Below, one piece after another: positions 181 through 52,576 of a DNA stretch of 64,000 bases. Numbering within the stretch: the first letter of the stretch is position 1; every line of letters starts with the position of its first letter. The DNA is from Adineta ricciae (Eukaryota; Rotifera; Eurotatoria; Adinetida; Adinetidae). The notes beneath the pieces were generated by a model that had not been told where the DNA came from, searched no databases, and worked only from the letters and a program-made list of their open reading frames with translations. Made by a program: the position numbers and the translations under genes. Location of the stretch: contig CAJNOJ010000019.1 in NCBI GenBank assembly GCA_905250025.1, forward strand, positions 434,001 to 498,000, in the 5' to 3' direction.

Positions 181-1781
181 CTAAAGATTTGTACTACTAG
201 TTTTCGAGTAATCGAATATCGATCCTCCTTGCCCATCGGATCGATTCATATTCCGATTTCCCGTTGCTGTCAACGAAACGGTCGCGCTAAGACCACCTGA
301 TATATTCTCAGGTGGTGCTGGCTTATCCGAACGTTGAAAATTTTTCCACAAATGAGTTAAAATATTCGATGTGACATCATCACCGACGTTTGAATGTATC
401 AATCGGAAGATGAAGAATCCGTCTTGTTGCAAATAATCGTGAATAAAGGCGTTCAAACCGGTTCGTACAGTTGTGATACTTTGTTGGATTTGAATCCGTT
501 GACTGAAAAATGAATAGCGTAGACGTGGAAGAAATAAAAACATCAGCCAAGAGACAAAATCGTAAATGGTTACAGCCAACACAAAATTCATCCAGATATA
601 TAAAACCGTAAATACTTGTTCGTTATACACATTGATAGTCAATACACCTAAAACAAATAAACAGCATAAGAGAAGAAGAAGAAGTTAATTAATAATAAAC
701 TGAACAAATAGATAAAATAAACATTCGAACTCCTCCTCGAGGCCACTATTCAACATCTGTACTACCAATGATAGATTATTTCAATTCTCTTCTTCTGCGT
801 CCTTGATGACATTCTACTTACATTGAACTGTATATTTATGCCCTTCGTCACTATTGGGCTCGATTATTCGAAAATCACACATGCTAATCTTCGGAAAATA
901 TTTCGATAATGGATTACTGCGCAAGACATCAGCAGTAAATATCTTCTGGAAACCTTTCCACGTTTGGTTGACCGTCCATTTTTCTTCGAGTAAGATTCTT
1001 ATCGCGTATAATTGAACAAACGCATTGAGTATAAATAGAAACTTGGTGACTAAGTAAAGTAGGAACAGATATGCACTAAACACGTTTGAACTGCCGAATA
1101 CACAGCTAATGAGACCTTCGATATACGTATTTATTCGATTATGTTGCTGTTTGGGTCGTTTGCGTGGATCGCCCGAGTATTGGTGTAAAACAGAAATGAG
1201 ATAAGCCATGATTGTCTTATGTTTATGAAAACGTTTGACACTTTTTAAATTCTGAGCAGCATCCATGATATTCCGGACATCGAGACCAGAATGACGACTA
1301 AACGAACGCCAAAACAATCGTGGTAGAACATAGAACAGAGCTTGTAATAGTAAAATAAATGGAACGAATTGGTAGTATCTCAAAACATATCGTTTTTCCC
1401 GTGCCCGTTGCATATTTGGTTCACTAATGTTAATATGGTACGTCTAATCACACCGTTCTCAACATTTCTTATCTGAATAGAAAAGTTTAGTCTTACATTG
1501 TGTATCCAACAATAGTTTGACACATAGATTTCATAGTTCCGAGTGAAGATGGCCGGTACCCAACTGAAAAGGATGACGACAGCATGAAGAAGATGCAACA
1601 ATGAGAATGTTTACCATTGAATTTGATCATTGGAAAACTGCTTTCCTGCGATGACAATTGAGAAGAAGATTAATAAACCTACAGTGTACTTATAATTCAA
1701 TCGATCAGCGAAATCATCGTCGCGTCGGACACCGAAATAACTGATAGTTGGCAAACGATGAAACGCATTGAGAAGATCCAT
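181..1781 (-). CDS. Innexin (gap-junction / hemichannel subunit)
   Basis: Four exons (1781-1615, 1563-1497, 1443-822, 647-181) join in frame to 440 codons, a usual innexin length. Family hallmarks appear in order: 'QCWVPAIFTRNYEIYVSNYC' with its cysteines in the first extracellular loop, then 'YYQFVPFILLLQALFYVLPR' entering the second membrane helix, a second extracellular loop ending 'CDF...YTVQC', and 'LTINVYNEQVFTVLY' leading into the fourth helix. Introns are 51-53 bp except the last (174 bp). Innexins oligomerise in the plasma membrane to form gap junctions or non-junctional channels in protostomes. The C-terminal tail after about residue 390 is short and Ser/Gly-rich. The start is the first Met before 'DLLNAFHRLPTISYFGVRRD', the normal N-terminal cytoplasmic segment. 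The subfamily is not assigned. Confidence 0.95.
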
Positions 1782-2671
1782 CTAATTAAAGAAATACAGA
1801 AGAGAATTTTGGTATGTTCGGCGTGCTTTTCTTTGAATTAACTATGCATTAAATGATAACAAGAATAACAATTGCTATTTGTCTAACAATGTCGAGCGAT
1901 AATAGAAACTAAACGGATTCTGTTCCGTCGATAGATTGAATCGACAAGGAAATAGATATAAATAAACGCATCTGTACAGTATCATCAGCAATACAACAAA
2001 TTCTTTTCTTCTTTTTTTGTTATTATCATTAGTATAAGTAGACATTAGTAAAGCAACTTATCATCATTCTTCCTTCTGTCTATCTTCTTTTTCTCTCCCT
2101 CTCTCGTCCTCTGCCAAACGAAACCGAGCAGCAATGTCATCGAAGATTGACATACGGAAGAAAGGAAGAAGAAGAAGAAGACTCATAATTCATCTTCGTT
2201 TGGGAAGAAGAACGATTCAATCATTAATCACGAAAAAAAAGTTGATGAGACTATCTGACAAACATCGATCTTCTGAACGACATAGTTACAACGTTTTGAT
2301 GATAAAATCTTCTCTGTGTGGAAACACAAGTATTCGGTTTACCTTGGAGAATTCTTCTCTGTTGAACTATTCGCAAGTAAGAACAAACGATTAATACCGA
2401 GAATAGTTGATTAGTCATTTGAGACAAACGTATGGCAAGATTACGATCTGCAATTTCTCTCTTTTGTTCATGTTTTATTGAAGACGTAAATGAAGATGAT
2501 CTTTGTTACAATTACGACAGTTTTATTCGTTAGTAAAATGTTGATACAAACATCAATGAACTGATTACACTGTTGTCAGTTGCAATTATTAATCAGATCC
2601 AGATAGAAGAGAAAGAAAGAAGGAAAGCAAAAAGATGGATGAGTGGAAGCAATTGTTTGTATAAGTTGTGT
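1782..2671. other. Intergenic region, no supported gene
   Basis: This stretch lies upstream of the innexin start and downstream of the EGF gene, so it probably holds the innexin promoter. It contains T-rich and GAAGAAGAA tracts. An 86-codon plus-strand ORF at 2134-2394 is basic and AGA-rich with no recognisable domain, and is not accepted as a gene. Confidence 0.5.
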
Positions 2672-4945
2672 TTATTCGTACATGTCCATTTCATCTTCAT
2701 CGATGGATAATGATTTTCCAGAGCCTACAAGAAGAGAAAGATTCGAGAAAGTTGCTGTTGTTGTTGTTTTTGACATACGAGATTCACATAAACGACCAGT
2801 TCGGCCTTTTGGACAACGACATTTAGGTGTGGATTTCACATAAACGCATGTACCACCGGCTTGGCAATCGAGTGGACAATATTTTGCATTACTTGATCGT
2901 TGGACTAGGATATGATCGAGATGACAATGCTTTTTATCAGATGAAACTGAACTTACTCTTTTCACATAAGACTCCGGAAGAGCCTTTTTGACAAACGCAT
3001 TGTGAACCGGATTTTGTTGTAACACATTTGGCTTTGTTCATACATGGATTTTTAGGTGAACATGATTTTGGTCGGTTGACTAAAATAAAATATAATAGAA
3101 CGATAGAATTAGACAATGTATCGAAACTGTACCTTTTTCACATCTTGCTCCATAGTATTCATTTGGACATGAACATCGAGCTTGTCCATTTAATTCATCG
3201 ATATAACATCGACCGCCATTTAAACATGTTTTGTTGCATGGTTTGGATATCAATGAACGAGCGCTACGACCTATGAGAGATTTCCATATGAAAATCGATG
3301 GGATATATGAAACTGTTTGCAACATACGAAATTGACAATAATAACCAGCATAGTAGTTAGAGCACCAACATTGGGCAGCGTTATTTTGAACCGAACAGCC
3401 ACCCATATTTTGACTAATCAGAGATATTCATAAACTAATATTGAAAGGATTGAATTACAAAACAAAAGGAAACTGACCATGGATTTGGCAAGCATGGATT
3501 TGTAACTATAACCACTGGACATGGCGTAACAATACATACACAACTTGGACATGATGGAGGACGTGTTGTAATTGTATTTGTGGTAGTGGTAGTGGTAGTT
3601 GTTGTACTTGTAGTTGTGGTTGTTGTCGTTGTCGTTATCACTAAAAAGTGAATACATGATCATGGTATCTATCGTCCATTGTTTTCCAAGGATCTGTTAA
3701 CATACTTTGTTGACAGTTAGTACCAGTAAATGGGTACGAGCATTGGCAAACATAACCGGTTGTTGTTTGTATGCAAGCGCCATTGTTAGAGCATGGATTT
3801 GGTATACAGTAATTTCGATATTCACATCGAGTACCGTAGTATCCATTCGGACATTGACAGAGATATGCTACGCAAAAAAAAAGAATCAATATTTTATTAA
3901 ATAAAGAAAAACAAGTAGAAGCAACACACTGGCGCCTGTAGGAATGCAGCGTCCGCCGTTTTGACACGGTGATTGCAAACACGGATCATACGGAGTGGTT
4001 GTGGTTATACGTGTTTCACAACATCGACCAATAAATGATGTTGGACATTGACACAGAAACGACATGCCTGATGGTATGCATGTGCCTCCGTTTTGACATG
4101 GATTTGGCTGACACGGTGTCGCAGCTAGGAAAATATACGTACGTAATCTAGATCTACTCGGAGAGAGTAGTACTAACCTGGTGCTTCGCAACGATTACCA
4201 GTAAATGTTGCCGGACAATTGCAAATGAATCCTGCACCATTGGAAACACACTGTCCGCCGTTCAAGCAAGGATTTACTGCACATGGATTTCTCGGTTGAA
4301 CTACAATTGAATAGATTCATTTTTATCAGAAAGATGAACATGTTTGACATATCATACTAGGTGTTGTTGCCGGTGCACACTGAATGGAGCCACAGAAGCA
4401 TTGAACTGTATTCACAACAATACCACAAGCTCCAGTAGAGCAGAATGAACATTGATACTGTTTAGGTGTTACAAGTGGTCCAAGAGCACGAGCTTCAGAC
4501 AATGTTCGGCCGATAGTCATGTTGTTCAATGCGTTTGGATCAGCTTCATACATTTCAATTCCATCGTCTTAAAAAAAGCAAACATAGATTTATCGAAGAA
4601 ATGAATCGCTTTGCATGTGAAGAACGTTGTTACCAAAATCGATTTGTTTAGCTTGTCGTTGTGCACCACACGATTCGACATATTCTTTCCAAACGCATGT
4701 TTTCAACGAATTTTCCCATGCTGTACCAGATGGGCAAGTAAATTTGATGCGTAAATTATGAAAACATCGTATAAATTTTGTACAATCTCCAGAATCTGCT
4801 GAATAATCTTGACATGAACCTACATATAATAAACGTGGTCCATACAAAACTCACACTGTACTCCCGATGACTTACTTTGTCCACTGACTACGATAAGAAC
4901 AGTACTTAGAAGGTATAGAACCACCGAATGCAATGCGAACATCAT
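2672..4945 (-). CDS. Secreted chitin-binding (CBM14) multi-EGF protein with Thr-rich linker
   Basis: The first exon (from 4945) codes a classic signal peptide, starting MMFALHSVVLYLLSTVL and ending VSGQ. The second carries a type-2 chitin-binding (peritrophin-A/CBM14) domain with 'CQDYSADSGDCTKFIRC', 'CPSGTAWENSLKTCV' and a final C. A cysteine-rich segment follows, then a string of EGF-like modules with the usual 'NPC.NGG.C......C.CP..F.G..C' spacing. At least six or seven are visible between 4300 and 2780. Between modules near 3550-3640 lies a run of Thr codons (ACN), a mucin-type linker likely to be O-glycosylated. The last EGF ends 'CRCPKGRTGRLCESR', followed by a short acidic tail ending in DMYE. 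No second membrane segment is clear, so the protein is probably secreted. Exon borders in the middle are approximate. A role in cuticle or gut-lining matrix is inference. Confidence 0.82.
3552..3641 (-). repeat. Thr-codon tract (mucin-like linker)
   Basis: An ACN-rich trinucleotide tract inside the EGF/CBM14 gene codes almost pure Thr with occasional Ser and Asn. It separates two cysteine-rich blocks and is the likely site of dense O-glycosylation. The opposite reading of this low-complexity DNA gives Tyr/His/Asn-rich shadow ORFs. Confidence 0.7.
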
Positions 4946-29336: not shown

Positions 29337-32300
29337 TCATTGGAATTCGTTGCCTGTTAAAGTATCATCGCGTTTTAATCTACGAGTCTTTGAATTTTTC
29401 CTGGTGCTATCATCGCGAGGCATAAACATGTTTTTTGAACGACTTCCATCGAGTAACGTTGGCGTGCGCTCTGCTTGGGTATCGTCATCTAGATTGAACG
29501 ATTGTTTTGGTTGGATTTTATTGGAGTATATAACAGATTCGATCAATTGATGAGATAAGCTGTCAGCGTATAAAATAATGCCGTCCGAAAATATTTGAAA
29601 TTCGTCATCTTCATCTTCATCGTCCTCTATGTCACTTATGATGCCGTCTGTAAACGACAGAAAATCTGCTGATGTAGACGCCGTATCGCTTTCTATATCT
29701 CTCGATTCGACCATTGAATCATATGCCGTATGGAATGTTAAGTCATCACTACTCGATGAAATATCACTAGCAGACATTGAAGTTAACATAGATGGATTAC
29801 TGAATACGGAATCGATGTCGCTCAGTGCACGGGAATATATACGATTCGCGATGATTTGTCCGAATAATTTCGTTGTTTGTAGTTCGTACGAAGATGGTGC
29901 TGTTTTTGTCGTTTGAGGGATATTCAGACTTTGAAATATCTCCCTGAGTAAAGATTCACTGTAATTCGTATAAATTTGTATTAGCTTCTCGTCAGCAGTT
30001 TCGTCGAGTACATTTCTTTGGATGTCTTCAGTCACTGATGTTACGGATGACCGTCGAGTTGTCGATTCATGTAAAACTTGTGACACATTGTCTTCGCCAT
30101 ATGAATTCTCCCTGGATTTGAGATTGTGTTCTATAGCTGTTGTAGACGCTAACACTGTCTTAACTATAATAGAATTGTCATGGGATAAAACTGGAAAGTT
30201 CTTACCTGTGGCCACCGTCAATATGCGATCGACAAGATTGTCTAACCATAGCTGAACATTTTCATCCAGTTCAACACCTTCCAAGTCACTCTCTAAATTA
30301 GTTGTACGATCGCTGGAAAGATGATTATTAATTTGTGACAACATACTTTCACAGGGTACATCATCGATCAGCGCTATTTGACCTTCGTCCGACGTTTCTA
30401 AAAGTAGTTGATCGGTTGATCTTTCATCTCTTTCAGACAATTTGCTTGATTCCGATAGTACAATTTGACGGAGTAAATGATTTAACCAAGTTCTTAGATC
30501 TTCATCATCATCATCTATGTTAGGTTGTTTAGATAGTGAGAGTTCGTTTAACACGTGGCTAATCCAAGCTTTTAGTTCACTATCTGCAGTTTCTGAACCT
30601 GCAGCATCTACTTCGGAAGATACAGTAATTTGCCGCAGTAGACGGTTCAACCAACTTCTAAGATCGTCGTCTGTCGGTTCTGAAGTCTCTCTACCATCTA
30701 TTTCAGGTTTTTTGAATAATGAGATTTCATTCAATACGTAATCTATCCAATTGCGAAGATCTTGATCTTCGCGTTCTACATCTTCAACCAATAATCTTTC
30801 TGAAGCTGTTTCGGGTGTGGGTTTCTCAGATAAAGAGATTTGACTGAGTAAACACTTCAACCAACTTGTTAGGTCGTCATCCGTTGGTTCTGAATCAGCT
30901 TCATCTTCATCGTCTATCTCAGGTTGCTTTGATAGTGAAATGTCGTTCAGAAGGTAATCAATCCAGTTGCGAAGATCTTGGTCTTCATGTTCAATATTTT
31001 CATCTAACAATCTGTCTGCGACCGGCGTATTCACTTTAGAAGTTGTTCCCGAGCTTGGTTCAAGAGATAAAGAAAGTTGACGGAGAAGATGATTCAACCA
31101 ACTTCTAAGATCATCATCATTATATGTGTCGGATTGCTTGGATAGTGAGATATGACGAAGTTCGTAATCGATCCAATCCTTGAGCTCTTGGTCTGAAGGT
31201 TCTGAATCTTCAATGACCACTTTTTCGGATGTTGCTGTAGTCGGTTCGAGAGATGAAGACAGTTGATGCATTAGATGATGCAGCCAACTTCTCAGATCAT
31301 CATCATTGGCATCCAAATCGTTTTCCAGTTGGATTTCTTTGGTATCACTCATTTGTTCAGTGGATAAAAGTGATAGATGATCTTTTTCATGTACATCAGC
31401 TTGCTTCGAATGGGAAATTGTGTTCAAAATATGATCGATCCACTCTTTAAGATCCTCATCACTTGGTTCTATGTCTTCAACTGATGATATCTCTGCAGTC
31501 GCTGAATGCACTTCATGAATTGCTTCAGATTTTGGTTCGTGAGAGACAGAGATTTGTTGCAATGGGTTATATAGTTCATTCTCTAGATCATCGTCAACAT
31601 TGGGTTGCTTTGATAATGAAATCTGCTGGAGCACATGATCAATCCACCCTTTGAGGTCTTCATCCCTAGAATTTGCTTCTGCAATCGGCGATGGTTCTTC
31701 GATTGCTATCTGATTCTCACGGTTTATGTCATGTAGTGGTTCGTGAGATATCGAGGTTTGATGCAACAACTCGTGTATCCACTCTCTTAAATCATCATCC
31801 GTTTGTTGAGTTTCACCATGTTGGTCATTCAATGACGGCGACGAAAGTACTAGAGTATCGGTTGGATTGAGTGCATTGTCACAATTACCTTCCTCAACGT
31901 TTGCACTTAACTCATCAATAATATCGATGGCAGCGGACGGGATAATATCTTGCACCGTATTCTCGCAGTAGTGTTCGAATCGGTCCGATACAAACCCATC
32001 GGATTGATTTTTCACAATGTTCGATAGCATGGATGTTGCGTTTTCGGATAAATTTGGTGATTTAACATCGAGTACAGTTTCATGGGAGGGTGTTGTGACT
32101 GTACAGTCATTATCCATTTCACCTACTAAATCAATAACAAAGTTTGGTAAAGCGTGACGAGCTGCGGCCATAACCGTATCATCATTAGACGAATCGTCAA
32201 TATGATGTAAAATATCACCTGTATCATCGTTGGCTTCCTTCGTCTTCCAATCTGATTCTAACTCCGACAAATACGTTTCTACATTACTCGGTTTACGAAC

Positions 32301-35300
32301 GAAATTTCCTTCATCTGTGGTAAGTATTCGATCTAATAAGTGGTCGAGCCAAATTTTCATATCTTCTTCGAGAGTAGAAATCGGTGCCACGGAAGCATCA
32401 TTTACGCTGTTCACAATGTTTTGTGACACAGATGTACTAACAGCTGGTTTGACCAGTTGAGTAGCATCTTTTCGATCTTCAACTGAATTGAGTACAACTT
32501 CTTCGTTGTGTACGTTTGCTAGACCTGATAAACAAATCTGGTGCAGCAAATCATGAATCCAATCTCTTAAATCATTATTTATAATCTCCAAATCGTCTTC
32601 CGCTCCAGTGTGTTCAATTCTTTCAACCGGTGAGTACTGATCTGACGAAGCAGAGTTTTCTTGATCGATAAATTCTGTCGATATAGACTCTACAGCTCTT
32701 GTTTGCAACTGAACGTCATCTTCTACCTCAAGCACTCTGAATTGTTGGGTTAGTACAAGTTCGCGAAGTATATCATGAATCCAATCTCTTAAATCATCAT
32801 CCGTCGAATGCACATTTTCTGCTTCGTATGGGATGGTTGCTGTAGATGCAGTTGTTAGATAGGTAGATTTTGTAGCGTCATGATTTTGATTCTCATGTGG
32901 TAAAGAACTATCCTCTTTCTTTTGTAGTTGTAATAAGTTTATCTGTACTACTTCATGAAGTAGAACATAGATCCAATTTCTTAGATGACCATCATTTGGT
33001 TCTTCGAGTACGTTCATACACGACTCTTTTTCCTGCTCTTCGTTCTCTTTTACTTCTTTGCTGGTTTCAACTGAGCTCGACTGCTCCATGGTTAACGTCG
33101 GAGAGGGTAACTTTTCAATATCAACCTCTCGATCAACCGAAGAATGTGGTGTATCTACGTTCTCGTGTAGTTTTGATTGAATGGACTGCGAGATAAAACG
33201 TAATAATTCATTGACCCAATCCTCTAAACCATTGTCGGCCGTTTGCATATCTTCGTTTTCAGTAACTATCATTTTAACAGGTTCATCCACTTTCGTCACT
33301 TTTTCGTGCTCCATGCTGTCATCAGGCGCATCTTTTACTTTCAAGTTTACTGTAACGTCTCGTAAAACATCATCGATCCAAAGTTTTAATGCGTCATCCG
33401 TCGTTCCTTCATCATTAGAAATAGCTTCAGTTGGGTTGTACGATCCATCAGAAGATTTTCCATAGGATTTCTCTTCCAGATTATCTCCAACTTCCAAGTT
33501 TCTTTCGCCAATAGGCACTGATTCGTCCATAAGATTGGTTTCCATTAGTGGCATAGCCGATAACGCACTCTTCATTTCCAACGCATCTGTCGTGTTTAGC
33601 AGGTGATCTACTGGCAGTGCATTGTAGACTTGTTCCACAATGGCACTTAATGATTCAGTCGGCTTCGTTGCCTCCAACACACAATCATCTTCATTTACAG
33701 TAGTTTCTTGTATTTCATCAGAGGATGACGGAGCACTTATCTCCAGATTTGCGTTGGTTTCTTCACCAGTAATTGTGACGTCTGACAGTCTATCAATTAC
33801 TGGTGAATTTACTGTCAATGGAAGTGTATTGGATTGTACTTGATATTCATTGTTGTTGTCATGTACCACTCTATCATCAGATGATCCATCGGTGGACGAT
33901 GGAATGTTGGACTGAAACTGATTTGCTTTCTCATCGTTATTTGATGCTGTGTTGTCCAAAATCAAATCATCATTTGCTTTTTGTTGCTCAAAAGTCATGG
34001 TTTCTTTCGGGGATTTGTTCAGTAGTGGGATAGTATCTTGTTTTTTCATCTGATCCGGAGTATCTAAAATAGTAAATGATTGGTTATAGGATAGTGTAAC
34101 TTCAGTTTCGATATTATCACCTTCTATAATCGGAGAATTAATCTGATGTTCACCATTACCAACATCTGCTATTGCGAAGTTCAACTTAGCATCATCATTC
34201 TCTTTTTCTTTCATAACAAATGCTATATCGTGCAGAGTATTACCGTCAAGTTCAATTTGAGCTTCTTTCTTTTCGTTCTGTTGAACCGTATCATTCACAG
34301 ATAGTTCATCGGACGATGTTCCTTCTGTAGTTTGTTTTTCTTCGACACTTGTAACCAACTGCTTGTCAACGATTGTGATGTCCGAATCTTTGCTACTGTT
34401 TTCCTCTGATGGCTTATCACGTGACAGATTGACCATCTGGCTTAGGTCAACTTCATTGTTCGGACTCGGTAGAGCAACGGCATTCAATGATTTCGGAGTT
34501 GGTGATTCAGTAGTCAGATCCACGTCGTCATGTGGCGCTCCTTCATCAGCGACTTTAATTCCAGCTGGCTTCTCATTGACAGCCGTATCTATTGATTTTG
34601 CCACTAATAGTGCATCAAGATGTTCAGTATCATCTGTCTTCTGTTCTTGTACAGTTTCATAATCTACAGGATTTTCACGAGATGTCGCTGTTTCTAAGTT
34701 GGCTTGGTTCTCTTTGTTCACTTCTTCTTCAGCCCGTTCCTCTGGTTTCGCATTGCTGTCTAAAAATGTGTTCACTGGTGGCTCGACCTCATATGTGACA
34801 TTGTCAACTTTCTTTTCTTGCACAGTATCTGTAATGTCCAGTGGGAGATTTGTGGAGTCTTTACCATTTTGTTCTTTGTTGGTGTCATGGTGCTCTTCTT
34901 TTTCCATCTTGTGAGATAATGGTGTATCCAATATTTTGTCGACGAACGAGTCAGTCGTCTCGTTCTTCACACCAACTTCTTTCTTCGCTTCTTGTGTAAA
35001 GATTGTGTCTACTGGTACATTATTGACTATATTATCTGAGTGGGCATCTGTAACATTCAGCTTATCTTCAGCTGATGGTTTAGCATTGAGTTCGACACGC
35101 TCATCCTTCTTCTCATCTTCATAAGGTATACTCTCTGTGGATGTGTCAGTTGATAGCGTTTCCTCTATTTCGACGACATCTTCTTTATTTATCGAATCTG
35201 GTTCTTTGTCGACGATGACTGTTGTCTGCAATGGCTTGTCAACAGATGTGACAGCGACCAGTGTCGTATCATTCGCCGTGTTCTCTTCATTGTTAGTTGA

Positions 35301-38300
35301 GATGGCCAACGATTCTTCTACCAACGGTATTGCCTTGGGTGCGGCAGTTCTTTCCAATTGTTTCTCGAGTAATTCTGTATTATTTGATGTGTCAATATCG
35401 TCTCCATTTTTCACTTCGTCTTTCACAACTATGATCGATAATGCACCAAGCGATGATGTAGCTCCGAGTTTTACTTCTTGTTCATCCTTTTCTGCATCAC
35501 CAACCGTTTTTTCTACAGAATGCTCAAGAGCTATTGTGGTATCCAACGGATTTCCAAGTAAAGATGGAACGTCCGCCGTGGAATTGTCGTACTTTGTTTC
35601 TTCCTGAAGTATTTTAATGTCGGTGGGTATATGGCTTGGTGATCTTGCGTCTAACTTTACACCATCCTCTTCCTTTTTAATGTTGTCTATTATCGTTTCG
35701 TGCATGAGTATCGTCTCAATCACTGTTTCAGATGGCGTGGTAGTCTCCACTTTGATCACATCTGCTTTATCACTATTTATCTTTGTAGAGTCTAATTTCG
35801 AATCAGCTTGTGGCTCTTCTTCAGTGACAATCTTATCGTCATGCGATCTGTCTGCTGATAGCGCAGCTTCCAGTTCGGTCTTCTCTCCGGTTTCGTCATT
35901 CTGCTGAGTAGCGTTGTTCACAGGCGCTTTGATATCATCTTGGTTTTTTAAGGCTTCGTCAGCAGTTGTATTCAGTTGTATATCAGACAACGTTGCATCA
36001 CATACTTCATTGCTATTCAATTTCTGATGTTCTGCGTTGGTAACATTGTCTTGTACTCGGTCAGTCGTTGCATCAGGAGACTGTACGCTGATGAACTCAC
36101 CATCATGTTCTTTCTGTCGTTCATCAGAGGCTATTTTATCCAAAGATTGATCGAGTGATGTGGCAGTCTGTGATTTTGCGTCATTTTCTTTCTTCTCCTC
36201 CTCTTTAATCACCGTTTTATCCAATATTGTATCAGATAATACTAGAGCATCTCTTTTTTCAGTATCGTCAATCTTCAGCTCTTCGTCACTGATGTCTAAC
36301 AAATCTTCAGTTGAAGGTGCACCGTTGACATTAGCATTATCGACTTTTTCTTCTGCACGCGTCGTTGCGGTACTTGCAAATGAACCAGTTGATGGTATTT
36401 TCCCTAAATTCCCATATTTATTTTGCGTCAGCTCGCCTGTCACAGTGGTATCCAGAGTTGCACCAACAGGCGATGTACTTTCTAATTTATCTTCCTCTTC
36501 CTTTTTTTCTTCCTGAATGATTGTCATATCGGTTGCTATATCAGGTAATACGTTATTATTCAATTTCGAATCATCCGTTGTGACTGATGACTCGAAATCA
36601 ACTTTCAATTGACTTTCATTTTGATTGTCTTGATGAACCGTTCTGTCTGTAGATGTTTCCGGTGCTATGGTGTCCTCTTGTTTCTTCGTGTCTCGTCTGA
36701 CATTTGTCTGTGGCTCGGTTATCTGTGCTATCTCAACGACTTCGATGTTCACAACTTCATCGATTGATGTAGCCGGTGTCATGTCGTCTACTTTCTTCTC
36801 ATTGTCAGAAACTGCACCTTCCGATCGCTGGTCAAGTAGTGGATTAACATTCACGGTTAGATCACGTTCTTTTTCTTTGTGGTTTAAAAATATAGTTTCA
36901 TCTAGCTTTTCAAACGATGAGGTACATTCGTCATTCGGGGCTGTCGTCTCTCCTGATTGGTGAACTAATGATGGAGTTCCTTGAGGGTGGACATCATCCT
37001 CTGGATAATCTTCTTCTTTTGTAGGTGTTTCTGACGATGAATCGACGTTTTGTTGCACACTCTTTTCATGAACGACTATCGTACTCAATGGCTTATCAAG
37101 TGATGATGTTGTTTCCACGTTCACTTCACTATCTGCTTTCGTTCCAGCTGAAATACCTGCATCATACGACTGGAAGGCTTTCGAGGGAGTCCCTAACTGC
37201 ATGTTTTCTTCCGTTTCTGCTTCCTTACTCGTGACGATCTCTGCTGATTTGCCAGAAGATGGTATATTCTCTATGTGGACCTCATCTTCCGTGATGATCA
37301 CTACTTCACTCTCATCGTTCTTTCCTTCGTCTTCATTTACAGCGCGATTGCGAATTTGAGCATCATTGTCTTGCTTTTGATAAAAAATGACGACGGAATC
37401 GGATGTTATCTGATCTGTAGTGTCCAGTGGGTTATCTGATGGTGTATTGGTTTCTAATATCGCACTATCAGCCATTTTTGTCTCTTCGTTTTTTATAATG
37501 TCCTCGGATTTAGTGGGTGACGTTACAGTCGTCTTTGCTACTGCTTCTTCTCGGCTATCCGTCGGATTCAGCGATTTTTCAGCTGATTCTGTAGTCTTCA
37601 AGTTGAGCTCATCTTTATTTGTAATCTCAGCTGATTGTTGTAAGTCCGGTTCGACATATTCTTCTTTGTTCCCGTCTTCTAATACGGAGGCGTCATGTGG
37701 TTGTTTCATTAATGTTTCACGTTCTAGTTGAGACTCATCCTTTTCGTTCTCCTTATCTCTGTTTGCGGTGTCTAGTGGTTCATCAAATGACTGTACTATC
37801 GAAATTTCAACTTCTTTTTCTCGTTCACTTAAAGATGTAGGGTGCAACCGTACACCAAGTGCTGGCTCAGTCTCCAAGTTTAGAGCATCTTCGGATGCAA
37901 TCGTATCGACTGGTTTTGTGGTTGACGGTATCGTATTGATATTTACACTACTGTCGTCATGTCCATTCGAGGCGGCCTCACTCTCCAGATGTTCGATATG
38001 TGGTGGAGACATACCTGGCTTGTCCTGAACTTCTTTATCCGCATCTCTTCCGTCATTGGTATGCTGCGTTGCAAGAGTTGTTGACGTGCTCGAGAGTTGA
38101 ACGTTCTCTTGTCTGTTGGCTTCTTCTTTCGATGTAGTATTCAGTGGTTCATCAACAGTTGGTGTACTTTCTACTTTTGAATGATCATTCGCTATCGCTG
38201 CATCTGGCTGTGTATAAAGTAATAATACATCTTCATTTAGCTTATTTTCGTCTTTGTTAATCTCCTCTTGTGTTGTAACGTACAATTTTGCTGGAATCGC

Positions 38301-41300
38301 GTGTGTTTCGATGAGTTTCTCTTCGGAGACGGTATCTGCTGGTACCTGAGTATCTGATGATATAAAACTCTGCGATTCCTGGCCACTTAAAGTTTGTACG
38401 AGTGAGCTTTCATTGATAGTCTTCTCCATCTCGGCCTGCTCCATGTTTTTTACTGATTTTAATGCTGACTCAGTTGGTGTAAGCTGAAATTGATTTGTCT
38501 GTAGAACCATCGTTGATTCGGGTAAGGTGGAACTCTCTATCTGACTATCAGTTTTCAGTTTTACCAGCTCACTTCCTACTGTTACGGCACTGGTTGTTCC
38601 AACCTCTTTGTCAACTGATAAGCTTCGATGCAGTTGTTGGTGGTTTGGGTAGACTACCGGTGAAGGCATTTCAACATTTTCACTAGTTAAAGATGCAACT
38701 GTGAACGTGGGCGAGGATGGAATATTGCTAACATCAATGAGATCAGTACCATTTTGAATTTCAGGCAATGTTGTTGTTGGAGTGCTGTCTCGTGTTTCAG
38801 ATTTCTCGAGCTCAGTCGTCTTTGATGTTACCTCGATGCTTGACGATGCGTCACGTTGCTCAGCATCAGCAGTTGCAATAGTAGTGACGTTCTCTGGTGT
38901 AACCAATTTTTCATTATCAACTGGTGCTGGTGGTGTTACAAGACTTTCTGCTAAGACTGGCTTTTCAGTGTCGACTGCTACTGCTTTCGGACTGTTTTCT
39001 ATGGTGACCGATTGCTCAACACTAGTTTCTGTTTTGGCAATGTTACTTTCTGGTATAACAGATTCCTGGACTTCAATCTTCAGGATGGGTGCTGGTGTGT
39101 TCATTACTTCTATTGCTGATGTACCTTTTCTTGTATCGGCTTTCTCAACTTCATCAGATGTTGTGACTGGCATTGAAGTATTTTCCGATGCTTTCAGTTT
39201 TTCTATATCAACTATCACTGCTCCGGAATTGCTGTCTGCTATGCTTGGGGATCTAACGAGTTCGTTTGCGTCGACTTTCTCAGCTTCAATCGTTATGTTG
39301 ATCGGCATTACGATGTCTTCTGCTTTTGCATGCTTTTCATTATCAGTTGTTCTAGAAGATTCTTCCACATCGACAGCTGCTGTAGTTGACGGTTCAGTAT
39401 GACTGTCAGTATCAACTGCTTGTGCTACCGGTGTATCGATTGTTGTAACAGTTTCCTCAATATCAGTTGTGGTTTTGATGGTGGTGGTTTCTGGTACAAC
39501 AGATTCCTCATTATCAGCCGGTAGGAGATGCGTTACGATTTTTTCCGATGGAACAAGTCTGTCAGTTTCTACTACATCCACTATCGGAGTACTTTCTGTT
39601 GTAACAGGTTCCTCCACATTTATTGATGATGTGCTTTGTGTTGCAGAAGATTTCTCAGTGTGCACTGCGTCTGTCATTGCGTTACTTTCTGTTGGTATCG
39701 ATTTTTCGATATCAGTGGGTATTGTAGTAGTAACGCTTTCTGGCATAGCAGCTGCCTTAGTGTCGATCAATGGTGGCGGTGGTGCTGTATTTTTGTTCGA
39801 TAAGGTGGTTTCTGATGTTGTGGACTTGTCAATATTAATTGTTGCTGTGCTTTGCGACGCGGTAAGATTTCCAGTGTCCACGACTACCATTTTCGAGGCG
39901 TCTTCTGTGGCAAGTTCATTCACACCGAGGTCTATCGTAATTTCCGGTGCGTTAGATTTCTCAATATTAACTAATGATTCTGCTGGACTAGTTTCTGTTG
40001 TAGCAGGTTTCTCAACATCAGTAGTTGTTACTGCTATAGTGACGCCTTCCATTCCATCAGACTTCTTCACACTAGTCGGTGAACTTTCACTGCTTTCTAA
40101 AGCGGCAGACTCTTCGATGTCAGCCGGATCTCCCGTTGAAATGTCTTCTGATGTAATCACTTTCGCTGTATCAGTTGTTGTTGTACTTGATGGTGTAGTA
40201 TGTTTTCCGTTGTCAATTAGTGATTCTGTTGTAACGGATCCCTCAACATCATAAGCTGTTTCTGAAGTGGCATCCTCTGATACATCTGATTTCTTAGTAT
40301 CAGGTTCTCCTGGCAATGGTGTTGTAGTCTGTTCTGGTGTAGCAGGTCTTTCGCTGTCAACTGTTCCCTTTGTCGGTGTGCTTTCTGATAATAGAGTTTC
40401 TTCCACATCGAGTTTCGTTGCAGTTGGTGACGCGACAAGTGTCTCAGAGCCAACTGATGATCCTCCTGGGTTACTTTCTGTTACAACAGATCTGTCTGTA
40501 TCAGTTGGTGATGTTTCATTGCTTCCCAATGCAATAGATTTTTCTTTGTCAGTTAGATCCACTGTTTGCATGTCTTCTGGTGTAATGACTTTCTCAGCAT
40601 CTGTTTTTACAGTATTTAGTGATGTGGTAAGTTTTTTACTGTCAATTGATGGTTCTGTTGTTGAAGCAGTAATGTCTGGTGCAACTGATTCGTCAGCGTC
40701 AAGTACTGTGGATGAGAGTGTTGCCGGTTTCTCGTTGTCAATTTTAACGTCTGTCGACGTGCTTTCAAATAATCGAGTTCCTTCCGCGTCGAAGTTTGTT
40801 GTGATTGGTAATGCAATAGGTTTGCCAGGGTGAATTGATGATTCCTTTGGAGTAATTTCTATCGCAACGTGTTTTTCAGCATCATTAGTTGCTCCCATAG
40901 CGGTGCTTCCGATCATGACAGATTTATCTGCGCTAGCTGATGACGTTTCACTGCTTTCTAATGTAACAGGCTTTTCGGTATCAGTTAGACCTGCCGCTGG
41001 AATGCTTTCCAATGTAATGAACTTCTCAGTATCAGTTGTTGCTGTGTTTGATGGTGTGATAGGTTTCTCCGCAATGACAGCTGATGGTGAAGTACATTGA
41101 TCAGTAATAATAGTTGGTGTTTCATTGCTTTCTGCTGCACCAGACTTACGAACATCAGTTGTTGGCGATGTATCGATTCTCTTCGGTATATCAGACTTGC
41201 CAATGACGGTTGTTGCTGGTGACAGTGTTACAGTGTTTACTATTGTTTTTGGCTGAGTGTTTGTTGTTGTGGCATTGTTCGCACTTGTCGATGGTTGTGT

Positions 41301-44300
41301 AGTACGGAGAGAATAGACAACATTTGAAGTTGGACGTACGAGAGAAGCATTGCTGATATTAGTAGAATCGACGCGCACTGGCTCGCTTTTAACAGGTGTG
41401 AATGGATGTTCCGTGTTTGCTTCAGACTGATGATTAGGAATAACATTTGCTCCTGCTGTTAAATTAGTAGTTTGATTGACAGCTACATCAACTTTAACAG
41501 TATTGCCTGTTTTGTTTTTATCACTCCTAATAGAAATAGCAGGCTGCATGATATCCGCCGCACTCGTGCTGAGCAATAGTGCTTGATTATCGATGTGTCG
41601 CTGCGTTTGCTCAGCTTGTGACTCAATGTTTGATGCAATCGATGTTATAGGTTCGTCGATCAGAGCTTTTGTCTGTTCAACGCTCTGAATAGTCTGTGTT
41701 GTGATTTTCTTCTGTTTAGATTTGGTTTGCAACGCTTCTAACAAAACAGATACTGGCGGAAGACGTAAGTAGTCCGTGGAAAAGGTAACATATAATCGAC
41801 CAACGCCTAGCCGATAAGTTGCAAAATCAACAGGAATATTCACCGTTTGTTTTGGTTCTATCGACATACTATTTCAAATTGAGTACATCGGTTTCGTGAA
41901 TAAAAAAAAAAGAATATTTATTTTTCTTACTTTGTATGAAAGGATTTTATTGCTGCAAGACCATCTACTGCTATACGTCCATTGATCACTGGTTTCGACG
42001 ATGAATTCGTTATTTGTACATTAAGCCTAACAGCTCGTCCAACTTCTGTCACATTAGGATGCAAAAACTGAAAAGAAAACGAACATTAAAACATAATCAA
42101 GTACAACTACGACCGATCATACTAATTTCATTGAAACAGGTTCTTCATACAAAACATACTTGTCCACTCGATACTTTTGATTCGTTTCATTGACAGTTGC
42201 AAGAACAAACAATTTAAATAAACTGTCAAAGCATCGCTTCGATATCCCTTGCATATCACTCATCTTTATCCGTATGGGTTGCTCTACAAAACATAAAGCA
42301 AAGCTTATCTGAAGTACACTCAATCATACTTACCTTGTCGACGATTCAGCTGGTAAGTGTATGTCAAAATTCGATTCGACTTTTGTGAATTTGGGACGTG
42401 AGAGTGATCAATACAATTCACCTCTACTACAGTTAATTTAACCGTGAGTGTTCTCGTGGCATCTGATCGATTATTGGTGATAAGCAACAAATTGAGATCA
42501 TTACCATTCTAAACAGTTTATTTATTATTTAAAAGCTGAAAAGAAAGCTTACTTGGATGCTATGAGGTGTTTTGATTTCGATATCAACATCTCCTGTCGT
42601 CGCAGTTTTAGTCGGTTCTATAGGAAATACTTTGAGATAATATCAGTTCTTTTTCTCCTGAATTGTATACTTTTAATTGATATGTAGTTGTCAGTAAGAT
42701 CTTCGTACTCTCCTTCCTTTTCCAACGATTGAGTAATAATTTTAAAATTTATCGGATTGTCTTCAGTTTCTATGAAATACAATAAAAATTACATCATCTC
42801 TCTAAATATCGAAATAATATTTACTGATCAGTTCTCGATTTCCATTCGAATGAATCAGCCAATAGGTTCTATTTCCATTTAGTCGACTGTGAATTTCCCT
42901 CGTATCCCATCTCAAATCCAATGAATGACATTTCAATGCTGCCACTGAACATGGACCAACGCATCGAATCGCTAAATCAGAGAGAAAAGACATCAGTTTT
43001 CTAGCAAATTATCTCCATTGACAGCCATTTACGTTTGCCACATCGAATAAACGATGAATCAACTACTTGCCAACCACTAAAATTTCGTGGAAGATCATCT
43101 CGACGTAGCCAACATTCATTCCATAAATACCACGGTCTTGAAAACCACCGAATGAACAAGAACGTCACACAATATCAAAACTCCCTTACCGAGTCATTTT
43201 CGATAGAACAACTACCGTTGATTGTTGTTCTTGCGGTACGTTCGGACGCGTATCACTCGTTATTCTTTCTTGAACTTGACCAGTGGCATTGTAAATAGTA
43301 ACAATCCGACAAGCGATACCCAACGACCGACATAGACTACAAAACACTGCTGCATGTTGCCAATTATTACCACTATCTCGCTGCATCGATTGAGTATTCG
43401 GTTGACGAGACAATCTCAAAATCGCTGGACTACTAGTGTAGTTATTATCTGGACAGGAAGCTGAACCCTCACCAAAAACAGACGGAAATATGCCATTAGT
43501 TGTTCCTATTTCCGAACAGATTTTTGATGCAAGCATACGAAGAACGACGGATGTATCGATCGAATATGGAACGGAAACTTGTATTTTACGAAGAAGTTCG
43601 AGAGCGGTCAATAATACAATACTTTCGAATTGTCCAAAGTACCATGGAATAGATCGAGGTATATCAGATAGACCAAGAAAAATTTGTCCATGTTCATTCA
43701 TAACATATTCCCTAATTTGCTCGGACGAATTCAAACTACAAGGATCATTTTTTTGCCAAGGATTAAAGAGGAAATAAATGTCTATTTCGAATTGAAAAAT
43801 AGTCAACGTTCGTTTATCGAGACAACCTTTTTCCATCATACAACAGGTTTCTAAGAATAACTATTAAAACACACCGTATGAATATCAAAAATTACAAGGA
43901 ACTAGCGCTTCATTCTTACAGAATATTTGCCAATAAGAGCATGACAAGGAGAATGGATTTGAAAATGAATTCGTTTCTTGTCTTCATTTTCCGTATCTAT
44001 TCTCCTTACTGACCAGTCATTCGATGAACCATTTAATGGTATTTTTATTGCTAAACTATTCAACCATGTATGACATTTGAAAATAAACGACAGGTGATGT
44101 TTGTCGATGTCGAATTCATGATCAAGTGTAAGAATAAAAGAAAATGCTTGACCTCGTCGAAGAATAAGTCCTTCGACATCATAGTAAATTGTCGCATGTT
44201 CTTCCATATTTTTCTTCTTACACAGATCGATATGAGTAGGTCTCAATCGAGATACTAAAAACAAAATTTATTCCCGTACAAACTCTGTATCTCTTACTAG

Positions 44301-44488
44301 TATCAGATGCACTATTTTGGTGTCGCATGATGATTGTTCTAAAAACGAAGATTTTCATTGACTGCTGCTGAGCCGCATGCGAAAATTACTCACGTTGGAT
44401 TGTTGTTCATGGGAATTTTTGAAGATGAGGAAAAAATACTACTCGAAGAATCGATCACAGATCGTGTTTGATTTTTCTCAGGTTGCAT
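29337..44488 (-). CDS. Giant protein: inactive transglutaminase fold fused to about 4,000-residue repetitive extension
   Basis: About a dozen small exons (44488-41945) code a transglutaminase. The N-terminal beta domain has 'EGLILRRGQAFSFILTLDHE'. The core has 'FLFNPWQKNDPCSLNSSEQI', 'EYVMNEHGQIFLG', 'IPWYFGQFESIVLLTALELL', 'AAVFCSLCRSLGIACRIVTI' and 'LWNECWLRRDDLPRNFSGWQ' with 'VVDSS'. C-terminal Ig-like domains follow. In the family the active Cys lies in YGQCW and the His in FH.W. Here these read SGNNW and WYLW, so Cys is Asn and His is Tyr, while the Asp is kept; cross-linking is not expected. The frame then runs through GTAAG..AAATAG into one exon of 12.5 kb (41868-29337) of about 4,177 codons. 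It finishes the last beta domain ('VDFATYRLGVGRLYVTF') and continues as Thr/Ser/Glu/Asp-rich repeats, then Trp-motif repeats, then an acidic patch and a basic end. No signal peptide is seen. The start is the first Met of the 5'-most coding exon found. Confidence 0.85.
30219..33405 (-). repeat. Zone 3 of giant exon: 19 Trp-centred amphipathic helix repeats
   Basis: I count 19 copies of a motif of the form D-x-[DE]-L-[RK]-x-W-[LI]-x-x-[LV]-L-x-x-[IL]-[ST]-x-S. Examples are 'DDDLRSWLNHLLRQLSLS', 'DQDLRNWIDYLLNDISLS' and 'DEDLKEWIDHILNTISHS'. The Trp and the following hydrophobic positions are nearly invariant, while spacers vary from about 20 to over 100 residues. In the densest part two sub-types alternate (W-L-N-H and W-I-D-Y). 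The i, i+3/4 hydrophobic pattern predicts a short amphipathic helix. Confidence 0.85.
33600..38300 (-). repeat. Zone 2 of giant exon: roughly 25-40-residue acidic repeats
   Basis: Units carry a 'D(K/E)PLDTT' type core, a charged E/K/D stretch and a hydrophobic 'NV.L' step. Examples are 'DEPLNTTSKEEANRQENVQL' and 'DQSLDKIASDERQKEHDGEF'. The copies are strongly diverged. The composition predicts an acidic, disordered filament-like region. Confidence 0.65.
38800..41250 (-). repeat. Zone 1 of giant exon: about 17-residue Thr/Ser/Glu repeats
   Basis: The coding sequence repeats degenerate units built like 'TDTEKPVTLESSETSS': a T/V-D-x-E-K-P/S core, a short hydrophobic pair and then a Ser/Thr run. 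Dozens of copies can be read. Their DNA is similarly repetitive, which is why long antisense frames stay open. Confidence 0.75.
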
Positions 44489-45081: not shown

Positions 45082-45573
45082 TTAGAAATCTGTAGATGAT
45101 TTATTGATCAATAGTGCAAGCATTGTAACAAGAAAACTAATACCTACAATTGACGTACAGATATTCATCAACAAGGTCCGCTGCGAGATCTTTAACGTTG
45201 ATTCATAGTCCTTAGTTCGTTTATGTTCTCGCACACGCATAGAGAGAATGATACAAACAATGCCAAATACAAAGAAAAGAAAAAAGTTGCCGATCGACCA
45301 AAATAGATAATCAGATATGCTCGTAAGCTCACGTTTATTTTCGGCAATTTTCAAATTTATATGATCGATCTCAGATTGATAATAATCAGTATTACTCTGA
45401 GGTAACCACGTAAAACCGTTTCGTTTTTCTAAATACGGTTCGAGTTCGTCGATTTCACGTTTTTCCATTCGTCCGACGCCACTAAAAGACGAAACAAAAT
45501 CATTAAATAAATTGAAATATTTCGATTTCTACTTCACAGGTCGATAACCAGTCAACAGACGTTCGTTACGCAT
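45082..45573 (-). CDS. CD225/dispanin-like two-helix membrane protein
   Basis: Two exons: MRNERLLTGYRPV joined through a GTAGAA..TTTTAG intron to 'NGVGRMEKREIDELEPY' and the rest, about 145 residues ending at TAG/TAA 45082. The C-terminal half fits the CD225 (dispanin/IFITM-related) layout: a helix 'DYLFWSIGNFFLFFVFGIVC', a small basic loop with S..VR...R..DYE, then 'TLLMNICTSIVGISFLVTML'. Family members sit in plasma or endosomal membranes with the first helix re-entrant. Vertebrate relatives include antiviral IFITMs, but most invertebrate members have unknown roles. The usual double cysteine of the first helix is replaced by Phe, so palmitoylation there is unlikely. Confidence 0.6.
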
Positions 45574-50042: not shown

Positions 50043-51283
50043 CCTAGCGAATACGCATTTGTTTACAACTGAGCAAAGATCCAATGAATTACTTGTGTCA
50101 CGAGTGTTTTGTCATGTTTATGAAATTCAGTTAGTTTGATCAATGGATTTGTCGTACCGCACTCTGGTTGAAGAAGAGTTCTCGACGTTGTCATATCTTT
50201 TCGTCTGTTTTTGTGCAAAGTCAGATAACGAAAACGTAAATATAGACGAAGTCATCTCAGTTGTATATTTGGCTCAAATCCAATATCATTGCATTGCATT
50301 GCAAAGCCCCACCTCCACTTTTTTTTCTCTTCTGTGATTGGTAAATCATGGATAGCCAATGATTAGATTCGAGTCAGATGGGCGACAAATAACAGAAAAT
50401 AAACTCGTTTTTCGTCGAGAAAATTATGTTAAAAACAGTTCATTTCGTCAAAGATAACTAAAAACAGCATTTTAGCCGGTTGCGAAATATTTTTCTGTTC
50501 GTTGTCTAACAAGAAATAAACACATTCCGTGTGTTTGTTTGTTTCGATGTGCATACGACCGCGCTCAACCACGGTTTCCAAGTCGTGTGTGTGTATGTTC
50601 GATTCTTTTTTTTTTTGTATTCTGATACGTTACATCGTACCCGTATTTAAATATATAAATGCAAAACGAGGGTGAATACAATCGACCGCGAGAGAGAGAG
50701 AGAGAGTGACGAAGAAGAAATCGAATACATCGACTAAACCAAGGTCTCTTTCTCTTTGTGCATATACGTGTATTTCTTTCACTATTCTACCTCGCCTGAT
50801 TTATTCTTTATCGTTATCATTTATATATTATGGACGAATAGTGAAATACACGAATTACCATGAACGAGTGCAATCTTATCTCGTCTACACTAGCGAATTA
50901 GTAGATCTTAGAAAATAGCAAGAGAGATAGAGAGGAAAATGTGGAGGTGATGGTATAACATGTGCAATCCAGGGGAACAGCTGAGAATATAAATAGTGAA
51001 GAATCTTCACTTTGTCTGCTTCCGTGTTTTAGTTTTATTTATTTTAATACATATCTATCAGACATGTGTGTCTTTAGTCCATGCCTTCTTTAGATTTAAC
51101 AGCATATTTTTGACTGAAATCGATTGGCTTTGCAGAATGTTTTCTCTTACCGCATCGTCGCTATCGATAAACAAAACATCGAAATAAATAAATACGTTTG
51201 CGTGTTTTTTTTCTCTTCTAGATATTGAGTGAGTAAAGGTGTAAATTGGCCAACCTTCTCACCAAAACGGAAGTCGGAACATC
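50043..51283. other. Divergent intergenic region / 5' leader of CELF-like gene
   Basis: Between the PEX5 start (minus) and the CELF-like start (plus). It contains a GAGAGAGAGAGAG run near 50692-50706, T-runs and TATATAAAT near 50651. An in-frame TAA at 51242-51244 upstream of the next ATG argues against an unspliced N-terminal extension. No gene seen. Confidence 0.5.
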
Positions 51284-52576
51284 ATGTCCGCAATGACAGT
51301 GACAAATAGTGGCAGTAATACAACCAACCCAACCGGAGTTAATGATCCACTTGATAGTTTCAATTTGTTTCATAGTCGACCACCTATTTGGTCCACATCG
51401 AATCAACCAGGACTAGATCATCAGTGGAATGAATCATTATTTTCACCATCACATCGTCCATGGCCATCGGAGCCGTTTGGCAGTGATGTTGGCAGCGATG
51501 AATTACCATATCCAAGACAATTAAATCATCATCAAACTCATGATTTCAGTCCATTACCATCATCGCCAGCGAATCTTTTAAATGGCAACAATCATCAAAT
51601 AAGTCAATCAGGACGTTTTCAATTTCTTAACGATGCATCATCATCGCCGTACTGTTCCCAACAATTACCTCTCATATCGTCATGTTTCAATGAATCATTA
51701 TATGATCCATCACCATCATCAACACTATTTTCAAATGATATCGACCGACGTTCACTAAATAATCCTGTTACAAACACAAACTTGCTTGATTCGCGTCAAA
51801 CATTAGATAATCAAAAACTAAGTTTAGATCAAATTGTTAATCGTTTCAATGATCTACAATTACAACCACCAACAGCATCAACGCCAACAACATCGTCCTA
51901 TCAAAATTCATTTTTACCTCAAACAAACGATCAACAGCAAGCACTTTCATCATTCTACTATCAACCATCATCACCATTTACAAATCATCTGTATATGAAT
52001 TCACCAAGCCAATATCAACAAAATGGTCCGACAACATCCAACCTATTTAACGACCGGTTCGAACGAAATGATGGCTATTTGCCATTTTCGAATAATTCAC
52101 CATATTTATCCGCCATGCGCTTTTCACCGAATCAAGCCTATCGTACAACAAAAAGTGGTAAACAACAAATCGGACCGGAAAATTCTAACTTATTCATATG
52201 TCATCTACCCCAAGAAACAACAGACCAAACATTGATGAATTTATTCTCACAATTCGGGACAGTTTTATCAGCAAAAGTACGTGTGTCCATCGATATTCGA
52301 TGAATACATCGAGTTGACTTTTCTTTTCAAAGGTATTTGTTGATAAAAAAACCAACCAATCGAAATGTTTTGGTTTTGTTTCATATGATAATCCTTCGTC
52401 AGCACAACAAGGTAATTAATTATTAATACGTTTATTCCTTTTGAATAATTGATGAGATAGAAGTGTTCGATATACGTTTTTTCCTCTTTGTTTCAGCTAT
52501 ATCAAGTATGGATGGATTTAGCGTCGGTCCCAAACGGCTGAAAGTCGAATTAAAAAAACCGCGTCGTAATTCATAA
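51284..52576 (+). CDS. CELF/Bruno-like RNA-binding protein with a single (third) RRM
   Basis: Three exons (51284-52276, 52333 to about 52412, about 52498-52576) give roughly 385 residues. The first 300 are Ser/Asn/Pro/Gln/His-rich and disordered. The C-terminus is an RRM almost identical in plan to RRM3 of CELF proteins: '[20 protein letters not shown]', '[15 protein letters not shown]', '[20 protein letters not shown]' (RNP1 = KCFGFVSY) and '[20 protein letters not shown]'. CELF proteins normally carry two further RRMs before a linker, but none is present and a stop precedes the start, so this is a shortened paralogue. The probable role is binding of U/GU-rich RNA in splicing or mRNA stability. 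Confidence 0.88.

Follow-up and report, generated by a model that had tools for sequence, protein, structure and literature searches.

A predicted pseudo-transglutaminase of Adineta ricciae continuing into a giant last exon with 19 tryptophan-centred helix motifs

The DNA considered here is a stretch of 64,000 nucleotides from the rotifer Adineta ricciae (contig CAJNOJ010000019.1, positions 434,001 to 498,000 of the forward strand), referred to below as the window, and the subject is a minus-strand gene in which a transglutaminase-like head runs on into a very long tail. Two stop-to-stop frames of at least 300 codons are present in the window, one at 29337-41873 (minus strand, 4,178 codons) and the other at 51245-52303 (plus strand). 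The first of these holds the last exon of a 12-exon model that extends from an ATG at 44488 to a TGA stop, with a coding sequence of 14,562 nt and a product of 4,853 amino acids (Table 1). All 11 introns are of the GT-AG type, the phase agrees at each junction and no internal stop is found in the 4,853 codons. Exon 12 measures 12,532 nt and starts within codon 677; its 4,177 codons contain no stop, against about 265 expected from the base composition (ln P about -274), and 4,141 residues follow residue 712 without interruption. Relative codon usage in the tail correlates with that in the head and core at a rho of 0.75 in frame, as compared with 0.20 and 0.28 in the two off frames, and AATAAA is found 84 and 164 bases downstream of the stop. 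It had been noted in a first-pass annotation of this locus that a stop-free exon of 4,177 codons follows small 5' exons across a phase-consistent splice (CAT ACA AA joined to T ATG TCG). The splice was found as given, and the arrangement is borne out by the 12-exon GT-AG model with its unbroken phase.

When the head was used as a 723-residue query, the Pfam families Transglut_N (expect value (E) 4e-19; 69.5 bits against a cut-off of 27), Transglut_core (E 1.6e-9; 38.5 bits against 23) and Transglut_C (E 2e-6; 28.3 bits against 26.6; residues 638-709) were found in the order typical of the animal transglutaminase fold, and together with the structure matches they cover residues 53-712. Eighteen distinct sequences of solved structure were matched at E 0.001 or better, and all of them are transglutaminases, factor XIII (FXIII) or protein 4.2; the top relative was the fish enzyme 1g0d (residues 61-712, E 1.4e-51) and the weakest was protein 4.2 (E 3.6e-29). 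With the catalytic part alone as the query, 18 solved sequences were obtained at E 1, and 1g0d and protein 4.2 again took the first and the last place. The full transglutaminase layout that had been read from the 5' exons is thus confirmed, both by the three families above their cut-offs and by the homology of residues 61-712 to transglutaminases of solved structure.

The catalytic triad was read from ten alignments, which represent nine distinct sequences (1g0d twice, four of FXIII and four of TGM2); the remaining 13 matches, among them protein 4.2, lay outside the set aligned for this purpose. In all ten, YGQCW of the active enzymes faces SGNNW, with Asn323 (codon AAT) in the place of the active Cys, the His of FHCW is replaced by Tyr384 (codon TAT) and the triad Asp of GWQ-x-x-D is retained as Asp407. 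The Cys-His-Asp triad of an active enzyme accordingly reads Asn-Tyr-Asp in this protein, in agreement with the earlier reading of SGNNW at the Cys position and Tyr at the His position. The Trp of GRWEE in 1g0d, which we take to be the transition-state Trp (W241 in TGM2, W279 in FXIII), faces Phe282. Moreover, the 1g0d segment SAHDVDGNL aligns with ATGQVQERI in the head, and head residues 487-501 lack the acidic loop seen in 1g0d and FXIII; both segments are presumably calcium sites, and the acidic residues of the active enzymes are missing from them here. Since Cys, His and Trp are all replaced and the acidic segments are altered, the loss exceeds a single residue, and the prediction that the head is a catalytically dead transglutaminase is supported. 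The lost active site would also fit a decaying pseudogene, or a frame that is open by chance. This explanation is very improbable, given the 11 intact introns, the 4,853 codons free of internal stops, the ln P of about -274 for the giant exon and the constrained motif copies described below.

With the active transglutaminases (TGM2, TGM3, FXIII-A and the fish enzyme 1g0d) the protein shares the order of N domain, core and beta-barrels, the triad Asp and the GWQ-x-x-D motif; it differs from them in the replaced Cys, His and one Trp, in the loss of acidic segments (presumed calcium sites) and in its 4,130-residue tail. To our knowledge, the best-known inactive animal transglutaminase is a single vertebrate protein, erythrocyte protein 4.2, which binds band 3 and ankyrin and is thought to act as a binding platform. 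Its inactivating change is presumably Cys to Ala, as against Asn plus Tyr in the present head. Protein 4.2 (EPB42, 7tvz_E) has been described as a transglutaminase homologue deficient in enzymatic activity (PMC11048792) and, like the head, has a transglutaminase fold without the catalytic Cys. Unlike the present protein, it has no giant tail, the solved chain being 691 residues long. Nor is it the closest relative, as it came last of the 18 solved sequences in both structure searches, and by E-value 1g0d and FXIII, which are active enzymes, are nearer to the head than protein 4.2 is. No precedent for such a fusion was found in the titles and abstract openings of the open-licence papers listed on transglutaminases or giant rotifer proteins. 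When relatives were sought in collections of viral and prokaryote-type genome contigs, the exon-4 protein gave no pattern match among the viral contigs and the repeat region gave 11 matches by pattern in the viral and 38 in the prokaryote-type contigs, none of which was confirmed; this says little about relatives, because the collections comprise viruses and prokaryotes.

The joining of head and tail is marked by the homology itself, which enters the giant exon by 36 residues (677-712), and by the Transglut_C match, which spans the last splice. Since the second beta-barrel is completed only in exon 12, a transglutaminase transcript must enter exon 12 to complete the fold, and since the homology ends 36 residues inside this exon, the giant exon belongs to the transglutaminase gene. 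The beginning of the giant exon had previously been taken for the end of a beta domain, which is what the Transglut_C match across the splice indicates. The proposed fusion of a dead transglutaminase with a giant tail now stands, beyond the splice phase, on the homology that reaches into exon 12 and on the loss of two of the three triad residues. The predicted organization of a catalytically dead transglutaminase joined in frame to a tail of about 4,130 residues in one gene is supported. Alternatively, the locus might give two products: the tail could also, or only, come from a transcript of its own or from trans-splicing into exon 12, with the head ending by early polyadenylation or at an alternative donor in that exon. 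Suitable words do occur in exon 12, namely the donor words GTAAG (3), GTGAG (4) and GTATG (5) and the poly(A) words AATAAA (5) and ATTAAA (7), and GTATG (4.0 by codon shuffling) and AGGTAAG (1 against 0.4) are slightly above their codon-shuffle means. However, these means exceed the counts for AATAAA (10.0), ATTAAA (8.3), GTAAG (5.7) and GTGAG (6.4), while GTAAGT and AGGTRAGT (two of the eight words counted) are at or below theirs. Furthermore, no stop separates head and tail, the last head domain is completed only inside exon 12 and AATAAA is present just past the giant-exon stop. Separate products were considered unlikely.

The tail is acidic, with 20 of its 21 blocks of 200 residues being net negative and the first block being the exception. 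No Pfam family was found above its cut-off in the tail (whole exon at E 1; five tail stretches at E 10); DUF2310 (E 0.015) and the weak matches of the tail stretches (best AraC_binding, E 0.0032) were below the cut-offs and were taken as chance. No solved structure matched the tail at E 0.1, and the repeat profile gave three weak matches only, the best at E 0.34. The earlier description of the tail as repetitive holds at the protein level, where three zones of degenerate repeats were recognized, but not at the DNA level: the two rows that Tandem Repeats Finder reported for the window both lie near 3.6 kb, and none lies in the giant exon. Since the tail DNA carries no tandem array, the tail repeats have diverged. 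In a leave-one-out test, all 18 copies of zone 1 and all 19 copies of zone 3 beat all but at most one of 200 of their own shuffles, as 8 of the 10 copies of zone 2 did for all but at most two (4 and 5 of 200 for the other two), though the test is not fully independent because copies and borders came from models of the same repeats. A frame of 283 codons at 39403-40251 (plus strand) lies antisense to zone 1 and is most likely a by-product of sense-strand composition.

Zone 3 carries a motif of about 18 residues in 19 copies, in which the central Trp is invariant and Asp at position -6, Leu at -3 and Leu at +5 are each present in 17 of the 19. The motif contains 19 of the 20 Trp residues of the tail. 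Between residues 4153 and 4471 (31463-30453), ten copies follow one another in strict alternation of W-I and W-L types, forming five dyads. A further degenerate copy at residues 4102-4123 (about 31595-31530, minus strand) has lost its Trp, scores 7.8 bits and was left out of the count. Over columns -6 to +8, the proportions of differing synonymous (pS) and nonsynonymous (pN) sites between copies were 0.78 and 0.34, while the motif flanks gave a pS of 0.67 and 0.63 and a pN of 0.62 and 0.60. Because the copies had been picked by pattern, the count was repeated on the 12 columns outside the picking pattern, with a pS of 0.72 and a pN of 0.42; in 50 control sets with random anchors in zone 3, the mean pS was 0.73, the mean pN 0.71 and the minimum pN 0.69. 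As synonymous sites are as different as chance and pN is low, the motif is constrained as protein. The mean hydrophobic moment of the motif helices was 0.53, compared with 0.27 after shuffling. A single-sequence model of nine copies showed nine helices, one per Trp (positions counted by hand). A model built from the alignment of the five dyads showed two helices, at residues 2-19 and 36-52, with a mean predicted local distance difference test score (pLDDT) of 76 and a predicted template modelling score (pTM) of 0.49; by blocks, the pLDDT was 88 and 83 in the first helix, 69, 89 and 74 in the second and 52 in the linker.

A-kinase anchoring proteins (AKAPs) have been described as disordered scaffolds that dock partners through an amphipathic helix of 14-18 residues (PMC4516873). 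In AKAPs and in the LD motifs of paxillin, as in zone 3, short amphipathic helices are set along a disordered-looking chain with alike hydrophobic spacing; unlike them, zone 3 has an invariant Trp, 19 copies and two alternating types. The paxillin-type LD motif (LDxLLxxL) was seen in 6 of the 19 copies and was rejected as a description of the array, and Pfam searches with the whole exon at E 1 and with five tail stretches at E 10 gave no family of the ubiquitin-interacting motif. The Trp-helices might instead serve to dock the RII dimer of protein kinase A, which would make the protein a multivalent A-kinase anchor. A looser pattern, hydrophobic at positions 1, 4, 5, 8, 9 and 12, has 23 matches in zone 3, where shuffles give a mean of 1.0 and a maximum of 5, and none in the rest of the tail, as this proposal would have it. 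On the other hand, all copies carry a Trp where the RII consensus has none, no RII-binding Pfam family was found in the tail, and the strict consensus has 8 tail matches against a shuffled mean of 5.5, two of which (4472 and 4552) overlap Trp-helix copies, with the Trp itself outside the consensus. Zone 3 was kept out of the AKAP class because the strict consensus is not enriched, and A-kinase anchoring was judged improbable.

The balance leans, if only slightly, towards a single gene whose 4,853-residue product is a pseudo-transglutaminase scaffold bearing a multivalent array of helices. Such a mechanism is likely, and the 19 constrained helix motifs would give such a role a concrete basis. 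Since the head keeps the transglutaminase domains without catalysis, it most likely binds something, and, as is assumed for protein 4.2, it might offer a platform for binding at one place. Some 2,500 residues in the middle of the tail would form a long, flexible and disordered spacer, and the array of Trp-helices would provide multivalent docking or cross-bridging, in which each helix may fold on the groove of a partner or pair with its neighbour, the dyads being predicted as two helices. Inactive transglutaminases are already known; what appears to be new is the make-up of the tail and its 19-copy array. A more detailed history is proposed tentatively, and at somewhat less than even likelihood: the loss of catalysis would have freed the head as a fixed anchor, the last exon would have grown as the old stop was lost and the repeats expanded, and the 19 Trp-helices would be an undescribed docking motif, in alternating pairs, for multivalent cross-bridging. 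If true, a separately derived dead transglutaminase has been turned into the head of a giant protein, a terminal exon can be seen growing into a multivalent scaffold, and the Trp-helix offers a short, testable motif for finding the partner.

Several observations weigh against the scaffold reading. The copies scored in the leave-one-out test had already been located by pattern and model. The right flank of the W-I copies has a pN of 0.34 and a pS of 0.30; since these flanks are equally alike at synonymous sites, part of the likeness there is due to recent copying. The nine-copy model is of low confidence (mean pLDDT 39, pTM 0.20), and a Foldseek search with the dyad model gave 47 solved structures at E 10, none of them at E 0.001. 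The location may be intracellular, as judged from no obvious signal peptide being seen by eye. It was also considered that the tail could be a cross-linking substrate, that is, an involucrin-like sheath protein which the dead head recruits to active transglutaminases. The 165 Gln and 237 Lys of the tail and the transglutaminase domains of the head would suit this role, but Gln makes up just 4.0% of the tail, and conservation is strongest in a hydrophobic helix rather than in a Gln site; a substrate role is accordingly doubtful.

Table 1 Features of the transglutaminase gene, in window positions
Feature	Position	Strand	Residues	Remarks
Exon 1, candidate start ATG 44488	44394-44488	-		Open frame, donor GTGAGT
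Exon 2	44298-44338	-		GT-AG, phase kept
Exon 3, bulk of Transglut_N	43920-44254	-	53-162 (PF00868)	E 4e-19
Exon 4, core domain	43190-43860	-		Predicted dead Cys site Asn323 (43365-43363); Phe282 for Trp (43488-43486)
Exon 5	43033-43136	-		His to Tyr384 (43129-43127); Asp407 kept (43060-43058)
Exon 6, later core domain	42825-42971	-		Splice borders and structure alignment
Exon 7	42671-42769	-		Acidic loop of 1g0d/FXIII absent at exon 8 join (residues 487-501)
Exon 8, towards beta-barrel 1	42553-42617	-		
Exon 9, beta-barrel 1	42334-42508	-		
Exon 10, beta-barrel 1	42123-42283	-		
Exon 11, beta-barrel 2	41931-42067	-		Holds part of the Transglut_C match
Exon 12, end of beta-barrel 2, then tail	29337-41868	-	677-712 (barrel end)	Stop TGA 29339-29337
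Tail zone 1, Ser/Thr-rich	38859-41057	-	948-1680	18 degenerate copies of about 20 aa (T-D-x-E-K-x-x-T-x-E)
Tail zone 2, acidic	34614-37955	-	1982-3095	10 degenerate copies of about 33 aa
Tail zone 3, Trp-centred amphipathic helix motifs	30198-33410	-	3497-4567	19 copies (D-D-D-L-R-x-W-I/L-x-x-L-L-x-Q-I-S-L-S)
C-terminal 286 residues, acidic stretch and basic end	29340-30197	-	4568-4853	No family above cut-off
Candidate poly(A) signals AATAAA	29168-29253	-		First bases 29253 and 29173

The C-terminal 286 residues matched ten armadillo-type or designed proteins among the solved structures, all at E 0.16 or worse, and further helix-like stretches were judged by eye in this part. One of them, SESLLREIFQSL at residue 4647, agrees with the RII-binding consensus, but 18% of shuffles hold at least one match.

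In a Pfam scan of 20 frames of the window, 12 matched a family at E 0.001. Innexin, the MGMT-type DNA_binding_1, RPL27A, HMG box, tRNA-synt_1b, Not3, CD225, Tubulin and RRM were above their cut-offs, and Tubulin_C and two TPR_17 matches were below. Innexins are animal proteins, and the innexin match (E 2.4e-29; 817-1443, minus strand) therefore identifies the window as animal DNA. On the strand of the transglutaminase gene and just upstream of it, the frame at 45085-45528 (minus) contains the CD225 domain of interferon-induced transmembrane proteins (E 9e-12). Among the frames listed, epidermal growth factor-like Cys patterns and one chitin-binding-like Cys pattern were seen by eye at 2675-4850 (minus strand), which may belong to an extracellular gene.
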